Below, piece after piece: positions 5,721 through 14,127 of a stretch of DNA of 64,000 nt. A model generated the notes under the pieces. The model was not told the DNA's origin and searched no databases. It was given only the letters and a program-made list of their open reading frames with translations. The stretch covers positions 1-64,000 of the IMG/VR virus record IMGVR_UViG_3300032307_000516; one strand, written 5' to 3'. A program made the position numbers and the translations under genes. Origin of the DNA: a virus. How positions within the stretch are numbered: the first letter of the stretch is position 1; every line of letters starts with the position of its first letter.

Positions 5721-7367
5721 ATGTCAAGACTAGGCGAATTTGCTGACAAAAAAACAGCAATGCAAATTTTACAAAACTCCACTTACGGAGCACTAGGAGT
5801 AGAGAACTTCATGGGAGGGATATCTTACAGCTTATCACCTCTAAACACATTAAAGATTGTTGCTGCTTCTTCAATCTTTGGAGAACCACAATATTATAGA
5901 GATGGATTAGGTGCTCCTAGTAACCTTAGCACTATCTTGGACTATTCTATATTAGCTCCGATGTTCAAAGCAGAATCTGGAGCTTTAAAAGATAATCTGA
6001 GTGCTGTAGATATCTTCGAAGAAGCCATACAGGCAGCTTTAGACTTCGACTTTAAAGCAACATTGGATTTAGCTTTAGAACTCCGTAACGAGTACTATAT
6101 GCGTCTAAATCCAGCTGTAATATTTGTTAAAGCAAGTATGCACGAAGGTCGTCAGGAGTTCAACGAGAAAAATCCTGGGTACATGAAGATGATAGGTAAA
6201 GCTATTGCTCTTAGACCTGATGATTTAACAAATCAGTTCGAATACTATATGTATAAGAACGGAGGTAAAAAAGGTCTTTCATCTTTGGTGAAAAGAACTT
6301 GGGCAGAAAGACTTGCAGAATTCTCGCGTTACCAATTGAACAAATACAAGGGTAAAAGATTAATCGACCTTGTTCGTATCTCTCACGCTAAAAGTGAAGA
6401 TATTAATGAGCTAATGACAACTGGTACATTAAAAGTAGAAGAGTCAGAAAAAACATGGGAGATCTTAAGATCAGAAAAAAAATCATGGGAAGAGATTGTA
6501 AACACTATCTCAATCCCACATATGGCTCTTTTGAGAAACCTTAGAGGTATTTTTACTGAAGTCGAAGATCCTACACTTACTGCAAGAATTTTAACTCAGT
6601 TAAAAGGCGGTGTTATAAAAGGAAAACAATTCCCTTTTAGATATTGGTCAGCTTATAAAGCTGTATCCAATTCACAGATCCACCACAAACAACTTGTTTT
6701 GGATACTCTTGAAGAATGTTTAGACATCTCTGTAGAGAATATGCCTAAATTAAAAGGTAAAACGGTTTGTCTTTCTGATAACTCAGGATCTGCATGGGGT
6801 GCTTTCAATAGCGAATATGGATCAGTTACTGTAGCAGAGATTGCTAACTTGTCTTCATTAATTACATCACTACAATCTGATTCAGGAGAAGTTGGTGTAT
6901 TTGGGGATGATCTTTCATTGAAAGGAGTATCTAAAAGAAATGGCCTTCTTACACAATTAGAAGAAACTTCTAAAAGAGGTAGAGCTCAAGGAGGTGGTAC
7001 AGAAAATGGAATTTGGGTATTCTTTGATGAAGCCATCAAAAATAAAGTCCATTACGACAACATCTTTATCTATTCAGATATGCAAGCAGGTCACGGTAAT
7101 CTTTATGGACACGGACACACAGTAGGTAAAACTAAATTTGTCCACCCAAGAAAAGGCGGAACATACGTAGACGTACTTGCTATGGCTCAGGAATACAGAG
7201 ATAAAGTTAATCCTAAGGTTAATTTATTTACAGTTCAAGTAGGAGGTTACAACAACAGTGTTCTTCCTGAGGCTCTTTACAGAGGAGCAATATTAGCTGG
7301 TTGGACTGGTAAAGAACCTGTATTTGCTAAAGCAATTATAGACATTTGGGATTCAGTAGAAGCCTAA
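5721..7367 (+). CDS. rsr: Ro60/TROVE-family RNA-binding protein
   Basis: 548 residues, the length of bacterial Ro60 orthologues. The N-terminal ~330 residues form the helical TROVE repeat region; the C-terminal part is a von Willebrand A domain with an intact MIDAS motif D353-N-S355-G-S357. Ro60 proteins are ring-shaped, bind Y RNAs on the outer surface and misfolded or fragmented RNAs through the central hole, and in bacteria tether the exonuclease PNPase or assist rRNA/tRNA turnover. The gene directly follows three structured RNA elements and a terminator, the arrangement expected for Ro60 with Y RNAs. In a phage with a large tRNA set, a role in tRNA quality control or as an RNA decoy holder is plausible inference. 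Confidence 0.92.
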   Translation: MSRLGEFADKKTAMQILQNSTYGALGVENFMGGISYSLSPLNTLKIVAASSIFGEPQYYRDGLGAPSNLSTILDYSILAPMFKAESGALKDNLSAVDIFEEAIQAALDFDFKATLDLALELRNEYYMRLNPAVIFVKASMHEGRQEFNEKNPGYMKMIGKAIALRPDDLTNQFEYYMYKNGGKKGLSSLVKRTWAERLAEFSRYQLNKYKGKRLIDLVRISHAKSEDINELMTTGTLKVEESEKTWEILRSEKKSWEEIVNTISIPHMALLRNLRGIFTEVEDPTLTARILTQLKGGVIKGKQFPFRYWSAYKAVSNSQIHHKQLVLDTLEECLDISVENMPKLKGKTVCLSDNSGSAWGAFNSEYGSVTVAEIANLSSLITSLQSDSGEVGVFGDDLSLKGVSKRNGLLTQLEETSKRGRAQGGGTENGIWVFFDEAIKNKVHYDNIFIYSDMQAGHGNLYGHGHTVGKTKFVHPRKGGTYVDVLAMAQEYRDKVNPKVNLFTVQVGGYNNSVLPEALYRGAILAGWTGKEPVFAKAIIDIWDSVEA

Positions 7368-8544: not shown

Positions 8545-8558
8545 AATATCTATATTTG
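8525..8558 (+). promoter_or_regulatory. Promoter A of tRNA operon A (CATTTTTTTA-N16-TATATTTG)
   Basis: CATTTTTTTA (8525-8534), exactly 16 nt, then TATATTTG (8551-8558). The same two boxes with the same 16-nt spacing occur at 11137, 13065 and 24299. It overlaps the end of the upstream gene. Confidence 0.7.
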
Positions 8559-8594: not shown

Positions 8595-8654
8595 ATGAAA
8601 ACAATACTTAACATATTACCTTCAATATTAAGACCGTCGATAAGACGATCCTAA
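8595..8654 (+). CDS. Leader peptide A (19 aa) of tRNA operon A
   Basis: The ORF encodes MKTILNILPSILRPSIRRS. Fifteen of 19 residues are Ile, Leu, Arg, Ser or Pro, exactly the amino acids carried by the tRNAs that follow (Ser, Arg, Pro, Ile, Leu, plus Met). The codons match at isoacceptor level: all four Ile codons are ATA (tRNA-Ile TAT), two of three Leu are TTA (tRNA-Leu TAA), two of three Arg are AGA (tRNA-Arg TCT), all Ser are TCN (tRNA-Ser TGA). The stop codon abuts an AAAGGTCC segment that pairs with the terminator arm. I infer a ribosome-stalling leader of an attenuator. Confidence 0.75.
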   Translation: MKTILNILPSILRPSIRRS

Positions 8655-8719
8655 AGGTCCTGTGTTAATAAAAAATAATCATTAACTAAACCGGGACCTT
8701 TAAAAGTCTCGGTTTTTTT
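8653..8719 (+). terminator. Attenuator A: antiterminator/terminator
   Basis: Segment 1 AAAGGTCC (8653-8660, at the leader stop) can pair with segment 2 GGACCTTT (8694-8701). Segment 2 is also part of the terminator stem AACCGGGAC (8689-8697) / GTCTCGGTT (8706-8714), followed by T8713-8719. The two pairings exclude each other. A small GTTAAT/ATTAAC hairpin (8664-8686) lies between. Confidence 0.8.
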
Positions 8720-8720
8720 A

Positions 8721-8733
8721 TGTTCTTTGACAT
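8721..8733 (+). promoter_or_regulatory. boxA-like element of tRNA operon A
   Basis: TGTTCTTTGACAT, near-consensus boxA, 17 nt before the first tRNA. Confidence 0.65.
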
Positions 8734-8749
8734 GTTGGATTATCAAATT

Positions 8750-8836
8750 GGAGAGGTGGCAGAGCCTGGTTTATTGCACCGGTCTTGAAAACCGACGTAG
8801 TGAAAGCTACCGGGGGTTCGAATCCCTCCCTCTCCG
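8750..8836 (+). tRNA. tRNA-Ser(TGA)
   Basis: Class II tRNA; acceptor GGAGAGG/CCTCTCC, anticodon loop CTTGAAA, long variable arm, discriminator G. First gene of operon A. Confidence 0.95.
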
Positions 8837-8841
8837 CATTT

Positions 8842-8915
8842 GGTCCGCTAGCTCAGCTGGATAGAGCAACTGCCTTCTAAGCAGTAGGTCTCAGGTTCGA
8901 ATCCTGAGCGGATCA
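8842..8915 (+). tRNA. tRNA-Arg(TCT)
   Basis: Acceptor GGTCCGC/GCGGATC, anticodon stem ACTGC/GCAGT with loop CTTCTAA; reads AGA/AGG. Confidence 0.95.
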
Positions 8916-9082
8916 CACAAATCCCTCTGCCTAGCGCTGGGTATGGATCGAAGATAGAATATGCCTCTACACCGTAGACAGGTAGGATACCTCGGTATTC
9001 TTTAATGATATGCACACTTATTCTCCAAATCGTTGGTTGGCACAGTTTGTATGTTCTGGTGATACTTAAAGACATACAATTT
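8916..9082 (+). other. Spacer with possible structured RNA between tRNA-Arg and tRNA-Pro
   Basis: 167 nt without a tRNA or ORF that I can support. The 3' part holds a TTGTATGT/ACATACAA hairpin (about 9045-9080). The rest has no clear motif. Confidence 0.35.
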
Positions 9083-9155
9083 CGGGATGTAGATCAGTTG
9101 GTAGATCGCCTGGTTTGGGACCAGGAGGCCCCAGGTTCGAGTCCTGGTATCCCGA
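9083..9155 (+). tRNA. tRNA-Pro(TGG)
   Basis: Acceptor CGGGATG/TATCCCG, anticodon stem CCTGG/CCAGG with loop TTTGGGA. Confidence 0.93.
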
Positions 9156-9158
9156 CTA

Positions 9159-9221
9159 CGGAGGCTGTAAAGTCAAACAGTGAAGAATTTAAAGGATGAC
9201 ATCTTTAAATCCCTCCGACCA
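9159..9221 (+). ncRNA. tRNA-like small RNA ending in ACCA
   Basis: CGGAGG (9159-9164) pairs with CCTCCG (9212-9217), followed by ACCA. Inside are two hairpins, CTGT/ACAG (9065-type D-arm position, 9165-9180) and ATTTAAAG/CTTTAAAT (9187-9210). There is no T-loop consensus and no anticodon. It lies 3 nt after tRNA-Pro and 1 nt before tRNA-Ile, so it would be released by normal tRNA processing. Confidence 0.45.
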
Positions 9222-9222
9222 T

Positions 9223-9296
9223 AGAGGCGTAGCTCAATTGGTTAGAGCACATGCCTTATACGCATGCGGTCACGAGTTCGACTCTCGTCGTCTCTA
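9223..9296 (+). tRNA. tRNA-Ile(TAT)
   Basis: Acceptor AGAGGCG/CGTCTCT, anticodon stem CATGC/GCATG with loop CTTATAC. A TAT anticodon reads ATA directly and does not need lysidine modification; leader A uses only ATA for Ile. Confidence 0.92.
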
Positions 9297-9300
9297 CTTA

Positions 9301-9374
9301 GGTCCCTTAGCTCAGTAGGTTAGAGCAACTGACTCATAATCAGTAGGTCCACGGTTCGAGCCCGTGAGGGACCA
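9301..9374 (+). tRNA. tRNA-Met(CAT), elongator type
   Basis: Acceptor GGTCCCT/AGGGACC, anticodon stem ACTGA/TCAGT with loop CTCATAA. Lacks the three G-C anticodon-stem pairs of initiators. A CAT tRNA could also be an Ile-lysidine tRNA; sequence alone does not decide. Confidence 0.9.
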
Positions 9375-9465
9375 CAAAGATACGGATGAGATTTCTAAAT
9401 CTCCTACTTACTTATGAAAAGAAGGATTCCGTAACTAATACCATATAGTAGTGATGGTATTGTCT
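9375..9465 (+). ncRNA. Possible structured RNA between tRNA-Met and tRNA-Leu
   Basis: TACGGA/TCCGTA closes a region with a GAGATTT/AAATCTC hairpin, and a second hairpin AATACCAT/ATGGTATT follows. The inter-tRNA spacer is otherwise free of coding signs. Confidence 0.35.
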
Positions 9466-9548
9466 GCCCGGATGTTGAAATAGGTAGACAAGACGGACTT
9501 AAAATCCGTTGGCCATTGGTCGTGAGGGTTCAAGTCCCTCTCCGGGTA
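9466..9548 (+). tRNA. tRNA-Leu(TAA)
   Basis: Class II; acceptor GCCCGGA/TCCGGGT, anticodon stem ACGGA/TCCGT with loop CTTAAAA; reads TTA/TTG. Leader A uses TTA twice. Confidence 0.93.
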
Positions 9549-9553
9549 CAAAT

Positions 9554-9660
9554 ATAATAGTGGCAGAGAGGCTTAATGCTGAGCATACATAGAGTCTGGG
9601 AATGTGGTATGTATGATACCTATACACGGGGACTCGCAGGTTCGAATCCTGTCTATTATA
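9554..9660 (+). tRNA. Aberrant tRNA, class II (Ser-like), anticodon unclear
   Basis: A perfect 7-bp acceptor ATAATAG/CTATTAT, a Ser-type D-arm (GCAGAGAGGCTTAATGC) and a canonical T-arm with TTCGAAT are present. The anticodon region does not fold conventionally: CATACAT/ATGTATG encloses an 18-nt loop, or GAGTC/GACTC and GGTAT/ATACC form instead. It could contain an insertion, be a mimic, or be decayed. Confidence 0.55.
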
Positions 9661-9663
9661 TAT

Positions 9664-9768
9664 ATAGGAGTGGCGGAAGCGTGATCTTTGCAAAGGTCCG
9701 ATAGATAGACGACAGGGTGTCATACCCGAGAATGAAAGTTCATATTGGTGCAAGTCCAATCTCCTGTA
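9664..9768 (+). tRNA. Aberrant tRNA, class II (Leu-like), D-loop insertion
   Basis: Acceptor ATAGGAG/CTCCTGT and T-stem ATTGG/CCAAT (T-loop TGCAAGT, with G where U55 is normal). A hairpin GATCTTTGCAAAGGTC sits in the D-loop. The anticodon stem is only GGG/CCC around TGTCATA. Acceptor pairing is kept, so it may still be processed. Confidence 0.5.
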
Positions 9769-9792
9769 CTTTTTTGATATATATAAAGAATC

Positions 9793-11136: not shown

Positions 11137-11170
11137 CATTTTTTTAAACGGGAACTTTTCCGTACTTTTG
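11137..11170 (+). promoter_or_regulatory. Promoter B of tRNA operon B (CATTTTTTTA-N16-TACTTTTG)
   Basis: CATTTTTTTA (11137-11146), 16 nt, TACTTTTG (11163-11170). Same architecture as promoters A and C. Confidence 0.7.
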
Positions 11171-11202: not shown

Positions 11203-11292
11203 ATGAAACACTTTTTAAATATCGAAATGGATCTTCAGCTTCTAAAAGGAGACGAACGTCTTGAGGATACAAATAAGTGTCAGAGGAAATAA
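11203..11292 (+). CDS. Leader peptide B (29 aa) of tRNA operon B
   Basis: The ORF has 3 Asp, 3 Glu, 5 Leu (four of them CTN) and 2 Met in 29 codons, with the core EMDLQLLKGDERLED. The tRNAs directly downstream are Glu(TTC), Asp(GTC), fMet and Leu(TAG), the last reading CTN. The final codons contain TCAGAGG, the first strand of an antiterminator. I infer a stalling leader. Confidence 0.7.
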   Translation: MKHFLNIEMDLQLLKGDERLEDTNKCQRK

Positions 11293-11342
11293 ATTTATAT
11301 AAAGATATAATTTAAACCTCTGATAACCTCAGAGGTTTTTTT
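11280..11342 (+). terminator. Attenuator B: antiterminator/terminator
   Basis: Segment 1 TCAGAGG (11280-11286, inside the leader ORF) and segment 3 TCAGAGG (11329-11335) are identical; both pair with segment 2 CCTCTGA (11317-11323). 2:3 forms a terminator AAACCTCTGA / TCAGAGGTTT with a T tract; 1:2 prevents it. Confidence 0.8.
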
Positions 11343-11350
11343 GTTTTATA

Positions 11351-11363
11351 CGCTCTTTGAAAT
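11351..11363 (+). promoter_or_regulatory. boxA-like element of tRNA operon B
   Basis: CGCTCTTTGAAAT, 3 nt before the first tRNA of operon B. Confidence 0.6.
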
Positions 11364-11366
11364 TAT

Positions 11367-11438
11367 GGTCCCTTCGTCTATCGGTTAGGACGTTAGGTTT
11401 TCATCCTAGAAAGAGGGGTTCGATTCCCCTAGGGACTA
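11367..11438 (+). tRNA. tRNA-Glu(TTC)
   Basis: Acceptor GGTCCCT/AGGGACT, anticodon loop TTTTCAT; followed by an encoded CCA (11439-11441). Confidence 0.93.
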
Positions 11439-11446
11439 CCAGAAAA

Positions 11447-11520
11447 GGTCCTACAGTCCAGTTGGAGTGGACGCCGCCCTGTCACGGCGGAGATCGCGGG
11501 TTCGAGTCCCGCTAGGACCG
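11447..11520 (+). tRNA. tRNA-Asp(GTC)
   Basis: Acceptor GGTCCTA/TAGGACC, anticodon stem CCGCC/GGCGG with loop CTGTCAC, discriminator G as usual for Asp. Confidence 0.95.
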
Positions 11521-11522
11521 CT

Positions 11523-11606
11523 AAAACTTATGCTACATAGAGCAAAGCAGAAAGGTACGATCTGGTACACTATGAAGTACAAATAGAAAGTCAGATCATA
11601 AGTTTT
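11523..11606 (+). ncRNA. Structured inter-tRNA RNA
   Basis: AAAACTTATG and CATAAGTTTT form a 10-bp closing stem. Internal complementarities are ATCTG/CAGAT and CATAG/CTATG, the latter possibly a pseudoknot. No tRNA features. It lies between tRNA-Asp and tRNA-fMet. Confidence 0.45.
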
Positions 11607-11618
11607 AAAAAATTATAT

Positions 11619-11691
<73 letters not shown>

Positions 11692-11905
11692 CTAATAAGT
11701 TATTTGAAATATTTGCGAAAAGTTCGATGGAATCAATTATAGGTCCAGGGCACAAATCCGTGTGAGGAATCCAATTGATAGAAGAACCTTCTACTGAGTA
11801 ATGCACGTACACGTGATATCCATAGAAAAGTCCTAATAAGTTAAAGGCAAAGGAGTTGATAATACCGGTTAAAAACAACTTTATCTCTTTAGATAGCAAA
11901 TAAAT
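11692..11905 (+). other. 214-nt spacer in operon B
   Basis: No supported ORF. ATCAATT/AATTGAT (around 11730-11785) encloses a GCACA/TGTG hairpin, so structured RNA is possible. No match to the GAAGCGG element. Confidence 0.3.
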
Positions 11906-11985
11906 GCCCTCGTGGTGGAATTGGTAGACACGCTAGACTTAGGATCTAGTGCGAAAGCGTGAGAGTTCGAGTCTCTCCGAGGGTA
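11906..11985 (+). tRNA. tRNA-Leu(TAG)
   Basis: Class II; acceptor GCCCTCG/CGAGGGT, anticodon stem CTAGA/TCTAG with loop CTTAGGA. Reads CTN, the Leu codons favoured in leader B. Confidence 0.95.
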
Positions 11986-11987
11986 CT

Positions 11988-12485
11988 ATGAAAGTTATAT
12001 TTTTAGATTTTGATGGTGTTCTTAATCTTATACCTCAAGGACATGACTATTACGGAGGGATTTTTCACCCTGAATTTGTCGGCAACCTAGGTAGGATTAT
12101 AGAGGAAACTGGAGCAAAACTTGTGATAAGCTCTTCGTGGAGAACTATGGGATTGGAAAGACTTAGAATGATGTGGGAACATCGTTTATATCCAGGAGAC
12201 ATCATAGGAGTTACCCCAGATCTTAGATGGAGGACAAAAAAAGATGCTATGGAATTAAACGAAGTCGAGTACGTTAGAGGAGATGAAATAGAGTCATGGC
12301 TAAATCTACATCCGGAGGTAACTAATTATGTTATACTTGACGATGATGATGATATGTTACAATCACAAAGAATAAACTTTGTAAGAACATCTGATAATAT
12401 TAATCATCCTGATTGCATTGATATAGGATACGGATTAACTAATATTTGTTCTAACGATGCAATTAGAATTTTAAACAGAAAATAA
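11988..12485 (+). CDS. HAD-family phosphatase 1 (RNA-repair type)
   Basis: 165 residues. The start is at 11988; a longer frame from 11949 would overlap tRNA-Leu. Motif I D7-F-D9-G-V, motif II ISSSW near residue 50 and an acidic DDDDD patch near residue 120 define a compact HAD. The pattern (DFDGVLN ... SSSWR) fits the HAD domain of Swiss-army-knife RNA repair proteins. It starts 2 bp after a tRNA and is followed by a paralogue; by analogy with the T4 Pnkp phosphatase domain I infer 3'-phosphate removal during tRNA repair. Confidence 0.75.
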   Translation: MKVIFLDFDGVLNLIPQGHDYYGGIFHPEFVGNLGRIIEETGAKLVISSSWRTMGLERLRMMWEHRLYPGDIIGVTPDLRWRTKKDAMELNEVEYVRGDEIESWLNLHPEVTNYVILDDDDDMLQSQRINFVRTSDNINHPDCIDIGYGLTNICSNDAIRILNRK

Positions 12486-13054
12486 TGAAAGTTATATTTT
12501 TAGATCATGATGGAGTAATTTGTCTTTCCCAGCAATTTGGTGGGCGTTACAAAAAGCAGACTAAAGCTAGAACTAAGCTTTCTCAAAACGTGATGGATTT
12601 TCCAGTCGATGCTAGATTTGATAACTTCGATAAGAAAGCTATTAAAGTTCTAAACCTAATCTTAGAAGATACTGGAGCTGAAATAGTTGTTTCTTCTGAT
12701 TGGAAGAACTGGGCAAATGTTGAAGAAATGGGCGAATATTACGAACAACAAGGTATAATTAAAAAGCCTATTGATTTTACACCTAGAGAATACACAATGC
12801 CAGAGAAACAAGAATGGCATCCAGACTGGGATTTAGAAGCATCAAGAACTTTAGAAATCCAAGAATGGCTAAAAGATCATCCAGAGGTTACTCATTGGGT
12901 AGCAATAGATGATTTAGATATGAGCTTTAAAGAGGTATCAAATAATAGAAGCGGTACTGGCTGGGGCTTAAAAAACTTTGTACACACCCCAAGTATCACT
13001 GAAGGGATTAAAAAAATGGGTATAAAAGAAAAAGTTTTAAAATTTTTAAAATAA
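12485..13054 (+). CDS. HAD-family phosphatase 2 (RNA-repair type)
   Basis: 189 residues; ATG overlaps the stop of HAD 1 by one base. Motif I D7-H-D9-G-V, SSDW near residue 76, acidic DDLD near 141. It has the same overall plan as HAD 1 but diverged, and a longer insertion after motif I. Tandem, translationally coupled paralogues suggest a heteromeric or substrate-split activity. Confidence 0.75.
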   Translation: MKVIFLDHDGVICLSQQFGGRYKKQTKARTKLSQNVMDFPVDARFDNFDKKAIKVLNLILEDTGAEIVVSSDWKNWANVEEMGEYYEQQGIIKKPIDFTPREYTMPEKQEWHPDWDLEASRTLEIQEWLKDHPEVTHWVAIDDLDMSFKEVSNNRSGTGWGLKNFVHTPSITEGIKKMGIKEKVLKFLK

Positions 13055-13064
13055 TTTCAAAAAA

Positions 13065-13098
13065 CATTTTTTTATTTAAAAAATATATTGTACTTTTA
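13065..13098 (+). promoter_or_regulatory. Promoter C of tRNA operon C (CATTTTTTTA-N16-TACTTTTA)
   Basis: CATTTTTTTA (13065-13074), 16 nt, TACTTTTA (13091-13098). A GGATATATAA box (13118-13127) precedes the leader. Confidence 0.7.
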
Positions 13099-13137: not shown

Positions 13138-13245
13138 ATGAAAAACTGTAGTAAACATAACATCAATCGCATGAACAGTCAAATTAATGGCTGCTATCAA
13201 ACGGTGGCGTTTTGGGCTAAGGGGAAAGAACCCGATCGAAGCTAA
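13138..13245 (+). CDS. Leader peptide C (35 aa, 19 different amino acids) of tRNA operon C
   Basis: The ORF contains every amino acid except Leu in only 35 codons, with Asn x5, Lys x4, Ser x3. The downstream tRNAs represent 16 isotypes (Phe, Lys, Trp, Arg, Cys, Ser, Ile, Val, Asn, Tyr, Gly, Ala, Met, His, Thr, Gln) and all 16 occur in the peptide. Isoacceptor choice also agrees: Ser is only AGT/AGC (tRNA-Ser GCT), Ile only ATC/ATT (tRNA-Ile GAT), Arg only CGN (tRNA-Arg ACG). The last three codons GAT CGA AGC are the antiterminator strand. I infer a broad sensor of charged tRNA. Confidence 0.8.
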   Translation: MKNCSKHNINRMNSQINGCYQTVAFWAKGKEPDRS

Positions 13246-13304
13246 TACAGAAAATCATAATTAGATATTTTGGAAAAGGCTTCGATTTAATCGAAGCCTT
13301 TTTT
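13235..13304 (+). terminator. Attenuator C: antiterminator/terminator
   Basis: Segment 1 ATCGAAGC (13235-13242, end of leader C) is identical to segment 3 in the terminator. Segment 2 GCTTCGAT (13279-13286) pairs with either. 2:3 is AGGCTTCGAT, loop TTA, ATCGAAGCCT and a T tract, a strong terminator. Confidence 0.88.
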
Positions 13305-13307
13305 ATT

Positions 13308-13320
13308 TGTTCTTTGACAT
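13308..13320 (+). promoter_or_regulatory. boxA-like element of tRNA operon C
   Basis: TGTTCTTTGACAT, identical to the operon A copy; 12 nt before tRNA-Phe. Confidence 0.65.
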
Positions 13321-13332
13321 ACTGGAAAAAAT

Positions 13333-13405
13333 GGTACCGTAGCTCAGTTGGTAGAGCACTAGACTGAAAATCTAGGTGTCGCCGGTTCGATTCCGGCCGG
13401 TACCA
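13333..13405 (+). tRNA. tRNA-Phe(GAA)
   Basis: Acceptor GGTACCG/CGGTACC, anticodon stem CTAGA/TCTAG with loop CTGAAAA. Confidence 0.95.
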
Positions 13406-13476
13406 CAATACTAAACAAGAAATTGTCTCACTAAACTAATCATGTTTAGTATTACAAAAACAAGTTTAGTAACAAT

Positions 13477-13550
13477 GATCTCGTAGCTCAGTTGGCTAGA
13501 GCACCTCACTTTTAATGAGGGAGTCGAGGGTTCGAGCCCCTCCGGGATCA
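13477..13550 (+). tRNA. tRNA-Lys(TTT)
   Basis: Acceptor GATCTCG/CGGGATC, anticodon stem CCTCA/TGAGG with loop CTTTTAA. A conventional Lys tRNA, separate from the permuted copy at 14462-14556. Confidence 0.95.
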
Positions 13551-13556
13551 CTACAC

Positions 13557-13629
13557 ACGTCAGTAGCTCAATTGGTAGAGCGTTGGTCTCCAAAACCAAA
13601 GGTCGTAGGTTCGATTCCTACCTGGCGTG
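13557..13629 (+). tRNA. tRNA-Trp(CCA)
   Basis: Acceptor ACGTCAG/CTGGCGT, anticodon stem TTGGT/ACCAA with loop CTCCAAA, discriminator G. Confidence 0.94.
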
Positions 13630-13635
13630 CTAAAA

Positions 13636-13708
13636 GGCTCTGTAGTTCAAGGGATTAGAATGGATCACTACGGATGATCTGATCCTGGTTCGAATCCAGG
13701 TGGAGTCT
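13636..13708 (+). tRNA. tRNA-Arg(ACG)
   Basis: Acceptor GGCTCTG/TGGAGTC (three wobble pairs), anticodon stem GATCA/TGATC with loop CTACGGA. A34 would need deamination to inosine to read all CGN. Confidence 0.85.
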
Positions 13709-13719
13709 CAAACAAATAA

Positions 13720-13791
13720 GGTCGTGTGGTCGAGTGGTTTAGGCACTAGTCTGCAAAACTAGTTATACTGGTTCAATTCCAGTCACGGCCT
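13720..13791 (+). tRNA. tRNA-Cys(GCA)
   Basis: Acceptor GGTCGTG/CACGGCC, anticodon stem ACTAGT/ACTAGT with loop CTGCAAA, discriminator T typical of Cys. Confidence 0.94.
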
Positions 13792-13808
13792 CAAAAAATG
13801 TAAGAAGT

Positions 13809-13934
13809 ATGAAAATAGTTATTGAAGGAAAAATGAAATCGTCGAATCACAGATTAAATGCGATTCCAGTTAAAATTGAAAGAAAAAATTCTCTAATCAA
13901 AAGAATCAAAAGATTGATTAATAAAGGAAAGTAA
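13809..13934 (+). CDS. Small basic protein (41 aa) whose end overlaps tRNA-Ser
   Basis: The ORF encodes a Lys/Arg-rich peptide starting MKIVIEGKMK and ending INKGK. Its last codons GGAAAGTAA double as the 5' acceptor strand of tRNA-Ser(GCT). Possible small RNA-binding protein; unknown family. Confidence 0.45.
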   Translation: MKIVIEGKMKSSNHRLNAIPVKIERKNSLIKRIKRLINKGK

Positions 13935-14011
13935 TCTCAGATGGTGACGGGGCTCGCCTGCTAAGCGAAGCGTACCTTAATTGGTATTTGGTTCGATTCC
14001 AATTCTTTCCG
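13926..14011 (+). tRNA. tRNA-Ser(GCT)
   Basis: Class II; acceptor GGAAAG/CTTTCC (seventh pair T x T), loop CTGCTAA, variable arm GTACC/GGTAT, discriminator G. Its first 9 bases overlap the end of the small ORF. Reads AGT/AGC, the only Ser codons in leader C. Confidence 0.85.
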
Positions 14012-14017
14012 CAACAT

Positions 14018-14091
14018 TGACATATAGCTCAGTTGGTTAGAGCGTTGATCTGATACGTCAAAGGTCGAAGGTTCGAATCCTTCTATGTCAA
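14018..14091 (+). tRNA. tRNA-Ile(GAT)
   Basis: Acceptor TGACATA/TATGTCA, anticodon stem TTGAT/GTCAA with loop CTGATAC; reads ATC/ATT. Confidence 0.94.
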
Positions 14092-14127
14092 CTTAAAAAT
14101 TATAAAAATGAAAAAAGAATTTGACAA

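Follow-up and report, generated by a model that had tools for sequence, protein, structure and literature searches.

Leader peptides matched to the tRNA genes that follow them, and predicted attenuators of tRNA operons, in a T4-like phage and in other viral sequences

The window analyzed here is a stretch of 64,000 nucleotides (nt), corresponding to positions 1 to 64,000 of the 72-kb IMG/VR virus record IMGVR_UViG_3300032307_000516. The record is that of a T4-like myovirus, as it encodes UvsX, a gp17-type terminase, a portal and a tail sheath protein. Within the window ARAGORN identifies 26 transfer RNA (tRNA) genes, covering all 20 amino acids. Three tRNA operons, here called A, B and C, are preceded by the same elements in the same order: a promoter element, an open reading frame (ORF) of 19–35 codons, an antiterminator strand overlapping the stop codon, an intrinsic terminator and a boxA-like motif, followed by the tRNAs. 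The three leaders share this architecture but differ in sequence, and each peptide is rich in those amino acids whose tRNAs follow in the operon behind it. Each leader is very probably a ribosome-mediated transcription attenuator, controlling a block of phage tRNA genes by OR-logic and negative feedback. The coordinates of the features are reported in Table 1.

Table 1. Leader, terminator and tRNA features of the three operons in the window
Feature	Position	Strand	Energy or basis
Promoter A, -7 element TATATTTG, Bacteroidota TAnnTTTG type	8551..8558	+	sequence
Leader A ORF, MKTILNILPSILRPSIRRS and stop, ATG to TAA, 19 codons	8595..8654	+	
Antiterminator strand A (TAAAGGTCCTG), overlapping the stop codon	8652..8662	+	
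Antiterminator A partner (CGGGACCTTTA), common with the terminator 5' arm	8692..8702	+	
Terminator A, 10 bp, T-run ending at 8719	8688..8715	+	-12.9 kcal/mol
boxA-like GTTCTTTGACAT	8722..8733	+	same motif upstream of 23S in Bacteroidota rRNA operons
tRNA operon A: Ser(tga) Arg(tct) Pro(tgg) Ile(tat) Met(cat) Leu(taa)	8750..9549	+	ARAGORN
Promoter B, -7 element TACTTTTG	11163..11170	+	sequence
Leader B ORF, MKHFLNIEMDLQLLKGDERLEDTNKCQRK and stop	11203..11292	+	
Antiterminator strand B (TGTCAGAGG), within the last codons of leader B	11278..11286	+	-14.0 kcal/mol
Terminator B; 5' arm (11317-11325) pairs with antiterminator B	11314..11338	+	
boxA-like GCTCTTTGAAAT	11352..11363	+	sequence
tRNA operon B: Glu Asp Met Leu(tag)	11367..11986	+	ARAGORN
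Promoter C, -7-like element TACTTTTA, one mismatch	13091..13098	+	sequence
Leader C ORF, MKNCSKHNINRMNSQINGCYQTVAFWAKGKEPDRS and stop	13138..13245	+	
Antiterminator strand C (ATCGAAGCT)	13235..13243	+	-15.7 kcal/mol
Terminator C, 16 bp; 5' arm 13278-13286 pairs with antiterminator C	13271..13305	+	
boxA-like GTTCTTTGACAT	13309..13320	+	sequence
tRNA operon C: Phe Lys Trp Arg(acg) Cys Ile(gat) Val Asn	13333..14757	+	ARAGORN
tRNA block Ser Tyr Gly Ala Met His Thr Gln; operon C member in relatives, here split off by a ~1.1-kb insert	15851..16541	+	

An earlier note on this DNA had proposed that leader A encodes the peptide of an attenuator, and most of its particulars are confirmed. Fifteen of the 19 codons specify five amino acids with a tRNA in the operon (Ile four times, Leu, Ser and Arg three times each, Pro twice), all four Ile codons are ATA, and the series Ser, Arg, Pro, Ile, Met, Leu announced downstream is recovered by ARAGORN. 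The TAA stop codon (8652-8654) overlaps AAAGGTCC (8653-8660), whose complement GGACCTTT is found at 8694-8701, as described. The label "rare-type" given to ATA stands only in part: the four codons are there, but ATA is not rare in the phage's own genes, where it makes up 2.6% of codons (ATT 2.9%, ATC 1.5%), so that the term could apply only to the host. The complete antiterminator helix, 8652-8662/8692-8702, has a predicted energy of -15.2 kcal/mol, against -12.9 kcal/mol for the terminator, and the two are mutually exclusive. Exact contact between stop codon and antiterminator seems dispensable, because in several leader A relatives the frame passes through the antiterminator strand and the stop codon comes after it.

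When only the control region of each peptide is considered, 12 of the 15 residues of leader A fall in the operon A set (5.0 expected, P~2e-4), and 12 of the 22 of leader B in the operon B set (4.8 expected, P~9e-4). For leader C, the amino acids present in the control region are exactly the 16 served by operon C together with the block at 15851-16541 (P~3e-6, a partly post hoc value, as the boundary of the region, about 10 nt ahead of the antiterminator, comes from the general geometry profile). Asp, Glu, Leu and Pro are missing from it, and their tRNAs sit in operons A and B; the whole leader C peptide contains 19 of the 20 amino acids, Leu alone being absent. The true assignment of the three leaders to their operons is the best of the 6 possible ones. 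When the larger leader set described below is included, the match of leader to operon is far beyond chance.

Viral contigs were gathered through two proteins, through terminator-boxA patterns, and from two huge-phage records; the region upstream of every tRNA cluster was then scanned, requiring a terminator and an antiterminator and ignoring the peptide. This structure-only scan found a leader ORF in 158 viral loci, corresponding to 78 non-redundant peptides. Leader MKNLLDILMVALVAVLWAADEDRLYSVG, for example, precedes Asp, Glu, Val, Leu and Ala tRNAs, MRTTLLHTLLLDRQGLLRRLMP precedes Leu, Arg and Leu tRNAs, and MSNIINIQPQPQHHPQGC precedes Pro, His, Gln and Gln tRNAs. In the huge phage of record LR745206.1 (634,780 bases) there are seven operons, each with its own leader, including MTTTQQIQQQQINQTD before three tRNA-Gln and the Tyr/Glu-rich MNTITNIASYESYYEEGNLVRRNNYVVM before Glu and Tyr tRNAs; the true assignment of the seven leaders is the best of 5040. 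This phage has about 60 tRNA genes, distributed over operons that have a leader each. Isoacceptor copies are numerous (four for Lys, four for Asp and three for Gln), and every leader is tuned to the set it precedes.

The composition of the 78 leaders matches that of their own operons with z=14.3, when operon labels are permuted among leaders: 92% of operon amino acids are present in the leader, compared to 68.5% after permutation. All amino acids but Met (19 out of 20) are commoner in leaders whose operon has the matching tRNA. Stricter redundancy limits leave z at 12.7 (57 leaders) and 9.7 (36 leaders), and the leaders obtained outside pattern fishing, taken alone, give z=7.0 (n=14). The same DNA translated in frames +1 and +2 gives z=-0.6 and -1.7; as these two frames are at background level, nucleotide composition is unable to explain the match. 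Chance composition of the leaders was considered as a source of the match, and is ruled out by this frame control.

The match extends to synonymous codons. Ile codons divide between ATA and ATC/T as 16:5 in leaders of operons with tRNA-Ile(tat), and as 12:54 with tRNA-Ile(gat). TTR and CTN codons for Leu are found in a 15:2 ratio with tRNA-Leu(taa) and 10:21 with tRNA-Leu(tag), while AGR and CGN codons for Arg are 24:6 with tRNA-Arg(tct) and 5:13 with tRNA-Arg(acg).

The predicted RNA structures are also far from random. An antiterminator with a score of at least 11 is present at 65% of 125 unselected, non-redundant terminators located before tRNA clusters, and at 4.7% when upstream sequences are swapped. 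As in an attenuator, terminator and antiterminator are mutually exclusive. In nearly all leaders the stop codon overlaps the antiterminator strand (region 2) or comes just after it. Enrichment of matched codons rises toward this strand, being about 2.1-fold at -30 to -19 nt and about 2-fold through -13; it is 1.55-fold at -12 to -7 nt, then 0.91 and 1.07 at -6 to +5, and thus ends about 10 nt before the strand. Given the known dimensions of the ribosome, one whose A site lies less than about 12 nt from the antiterminator strand would cover the strand; the codons nearest to it would accordingly be useless as sensors, because a ribosome stalled there would mask region 2. The control codons are therefore placed as in an attenuator, where an upstream stall frees region 2 and a ribosome at the stop codon masks it. 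Pairing of region 2 with the leader itself scores 0.63, compared to 0.52 with shuffled codons (p=2e-7), a modest effect. Among the relatives of leader A (family A), four different inner hairpin sequences, all self-complementary, are found between two conserved antiterminator arms, and at least one arm pair shows an A-U to U-A change, indicating a covarying extension of the antiterminator.

Peptide conservation differs among families. The ratio of non-synonymous to synonymous polymorphism (pN/pS) is 0.09 for leader C in its relatives, denoting strong purifying selection, and 0.31 for family N, where selection is moderate; for the leader A family it is 0.77-1.04, denoting weak constraint. Yet from codon 7 on, in the control region of leader A, all four variable positions switch only among Ile, Leu and Ser, all operon amino acids, while about 46% of one-step replacements would give operon amino acids. 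Order drifts and composition is kept, the pattern expected of a codon-counting sensor.

For 43 of 73 leaders, a TAnnTTTG element is found in the 120 nt upstream, compared to 11% of random windows; given these promoter-like elements upstream of the leader, the terminator should lie within the operon's own transcript. Between terminator and tRNAs, GTTCTTTGACAT is the usual motif. With at most one mismatch, it is present in 59 of 74 loci, many of which were fished by the motif itself, and in 6 of the 14 unfished ones. GTTCTTTGACATATTGG occurs upstream of 23S in the ribosomal RNA (rRNA) operons of many Bacteroidota genomes, and the phage motif is, by its sequence, consistent with a boxA of the rRNA type. 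No association was found with 16S starts within 500 nt, a test that was empty because the motif sits upstream of 23S.

The terminase of the window phage is nearest to those of uncultured huge phages and, among isolates, to those of phages such as PAU and Tenacibaculum phage PTm1. These relatives, together with the promoter and boxA motifs, point to a Bacteroidota host. A search of phage records by BLAST with the tRNA region returned tRNA cross-matches only. Origin of the leaders from a host chromosome was considered and is unsupported: the terminator-boxA pattern, which misses leaders lacking boxA, is absent from the 20 genomes, mostly of Bacteroidota, behind the boxA matches.

Between operons B and C, at 11949-13054, lie two tandem proteins with the HAD_SAK_2 ("Swiss Army Knife RNA repair" HAD) domain; the first of the listed ORFs begins within tRNA-Leu, and its likely ATG is at 11988. 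A TROVE (Ro-like) protein is encoded at 5721-7367, 1.2 kb upstream of leader A, with relatives in Bacillus phage G (53.5% identity), in a Desulfovibrio phage and in crAss-like phages. A neighbourhood of this kind would fit a response to tRNA damage. The 5' half of tRNA-Tyr is present twice, the extra copy being at 14760-14795, and the ~1.1 kb before the intact gene carries an ORF of 311 amino acids (weak DUF6734 match) and a second tRNA-Ser(tga). In relatives, tRNA-Tyr comes directly after tRNA-Asn, and the region 14760-15945 looks like an insertion into the tRNA gene which rebuilt the gene. Three tRNA-like stretches, at 9560-9770, 13938-14015 and 14434-14600, contain T-arm/D-arm pieces and are called by neither ARAGORN nor Rfam; they are tRNA remnants or, possibly, Y-RNA-like partners of the TROVE protein.

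The attenuator reading of the earlier note is thus strengthened by two further tuned leaders in the window and by 78 non-redundant leaders elsewhere; a match seen in one frame only, agreement of codons and anticodons, antiterminators far above chance, covarying hairpins and the geometry of the control codons add to it. Anatomy, operon tuning, codon-level match, frame specificity, control-codon position and the covarying antiterminator are all computed observations. The leaders are presumably translated, and the direction of switching would be the following. A ribosome would trail RNA polymerase into a short ORF made of codons read by the downstream tRNAs. With all these tRNAs available, it would reach the stop codon and cover region 2, so that the terminator (3:4) would form before the tRNA genes. 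When any one tRNA is scarce, the ribosome would stall upstream, leaving region 2 to pair with the terminator 5' arm (2:3), and polymerase would pass the boxA-like antitermination site into the operon. With no ribosome, the leader may sequester region 2 (1:2), again allowing the terminator. Fresh tRNAs would lift the stall, which amounts to negative feedback, with OR-logic across up to 16 tRNA species.

Several points weigh against this interpretation. The attenuator case is computational, and transcription-translation coupling in Bacteroidota is presupposed. Leader A taken alone reaches only the P value given above, and was selected post hoc; the set obtained outside pattern fishing is small, with 14 leaders. 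About 18% of the non-redundant terminators before tRNA clusters have no antiterminator detectable at score 9. In six control or isolate phages no such leader was found: in PAU, pT24 and crAss001 tRNA clusters are found without leader or terminator, indicating that not all Bacteroidota phages have the system, and in the stretches covered of T4-like HY01, Thanatos-1 and phage G no leader is found. A cultured phage with the leader anatomy was sought and none found, the terminator-boxA probe giving partial matches only.

The signal most likely arises when host tRNAs are depleted or cleaved in the course of infection; host tRNA cleavage, in particular, is suggested by the TROVE and RNA-repair genes neighbouring the operons. 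It is rather probable that the leaders form a phage-borne surveillance of the tRNA pool, where each operon carries a translated "test strip" of the tRNAs it supplies, and any loss, for instance by host anticodon nucleases, induces that operon, in concert with the linked RNA-repair and Ro-like proteins. The same cis mechanism might instead respond to amino-acid starvation, that is to uncharged tRNA, which appears unlikely as the natural signal. Classic attenuators do read charged tRNA, and a stalled ribosome is blind to the difference between an uncharged and a missing tRNA. The operons, however, deliver tRNAs and not amino acids, so that starvation would stay unrelieved; leader codons track the anticodon of the encoded tRNA, and two HAD_SAK_2 RNA-repair genes and a TROVE protein accompany the operons. 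Moreover, phage tRNAs are known to offset host tRNA cleavage (PMC10264068, PMC11555353).

The remaining explanations concern the mechanism itself. Stalling could be due to the peptide sequence rather than to codons, as in arrest peptides of the tnaC/erm type, and the conservation of the leader C and family N peptides would be in line with this; yet no motif is common to peptides of different operons, family A reshuffles order freely inside its amino-acid set at a pN/pS of ~0.8-1.0, composition tracks tRNAs and synonymous codons track anticodons, making nascent-chain arrest very improbable. Slightly less credible still is an ordinary terminator insulating the tRNA operon from upstream transcription, with ORF and composition incidental. 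A standard intrinsic terminator is indeed part of each leader, and terminators may well be common ahead of tRNA clusters, but neither the frame-specific match, at z=14.4 in the frame control, nor the promoter-like elements upstream of the leader, nor the excess of antiterminators over swapped sequences agrees with simple insulation. Least credible of all is direct sensing of tRNA by the RNA, in the manner of a T-box with the ORF as a decoy, since, for all the similarity of outcome and target (the tRNA level), the leaders are short and readable as codons in one frame, and the window contains no match at gathering score to the Rfam T-box model (Stem I specifier loop, T-box bulge) nor to any other non-tRNA Rfam family.

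Whether phages carry tRNAs for codon compensation or to replace those that the host destroys is a decades-old debate. A leader listing the served codons reveals, operon by operon, what the phage treats as signal. If tRNA-pool surveillance is indeed its function, the system would amount to a counter-defence that is inducible and under feedback control, and that many phages of Bacteroidota share. Leaders could help to forecast the tRNAs that come under attack in natural hosts, and could act as modular single-tRNA sensors.

Phage tRNA arrays supply replacements against host tRNA cleavage (PMC10264068, PMC11555353); these two papers cover the sequence, expression and promoter strength of phage tRNAs, and their main texts contain neither "leader" nor "attenuat". 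No earlier report of leader-peptide control of phage tRNA genes was found in the open-access literature searched, most subscription journals and preprints being outside this scope, and control of this kind over tRNA genes seems previously undescribed.

Parts of the system have known counterparts. The boxA of rRNA operons has the same motif, which in the phage is placed after a regulated terminator and before the tRNAs. T-box riboswitches, like the phage leaders, are tRNA-responsive terminator/antiterminator switches; unlike them, they bind tRNA directly, need no translation, and have as targets genes for synthetases, for biosynthesis and for transport. Leader-peptide attenuators are known for amino-acid operons (trp, his, leu, thr, ilvGMEDA) and for pheST. 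Amino-acid attenuators and phage leaders have in common a short ORF rich in control codons, a region 2 near the stop codon, exclusive 2:3 and 3:4 pairings and a 1:2 sequestration, and more than one amino acid is already sensed by the ilv and thr leaders. Amino-acid attenuators, however, regulate genes for biosynthesis or for synthetases, and the charged tRNA they sense belongs to one to three amino acids. The phage leaders precede, and would control, the tRNA genes themselves; up to 16 amino acids occur per leader, and the choice among synonymous codons follows the encoded anticodons. If they work as proposed, leader-peptide attenuation would reach beyond amino-acid synthesis to tRNA genes, would take as many as 16 inputs instead of one to three, and would operate in viruses too.
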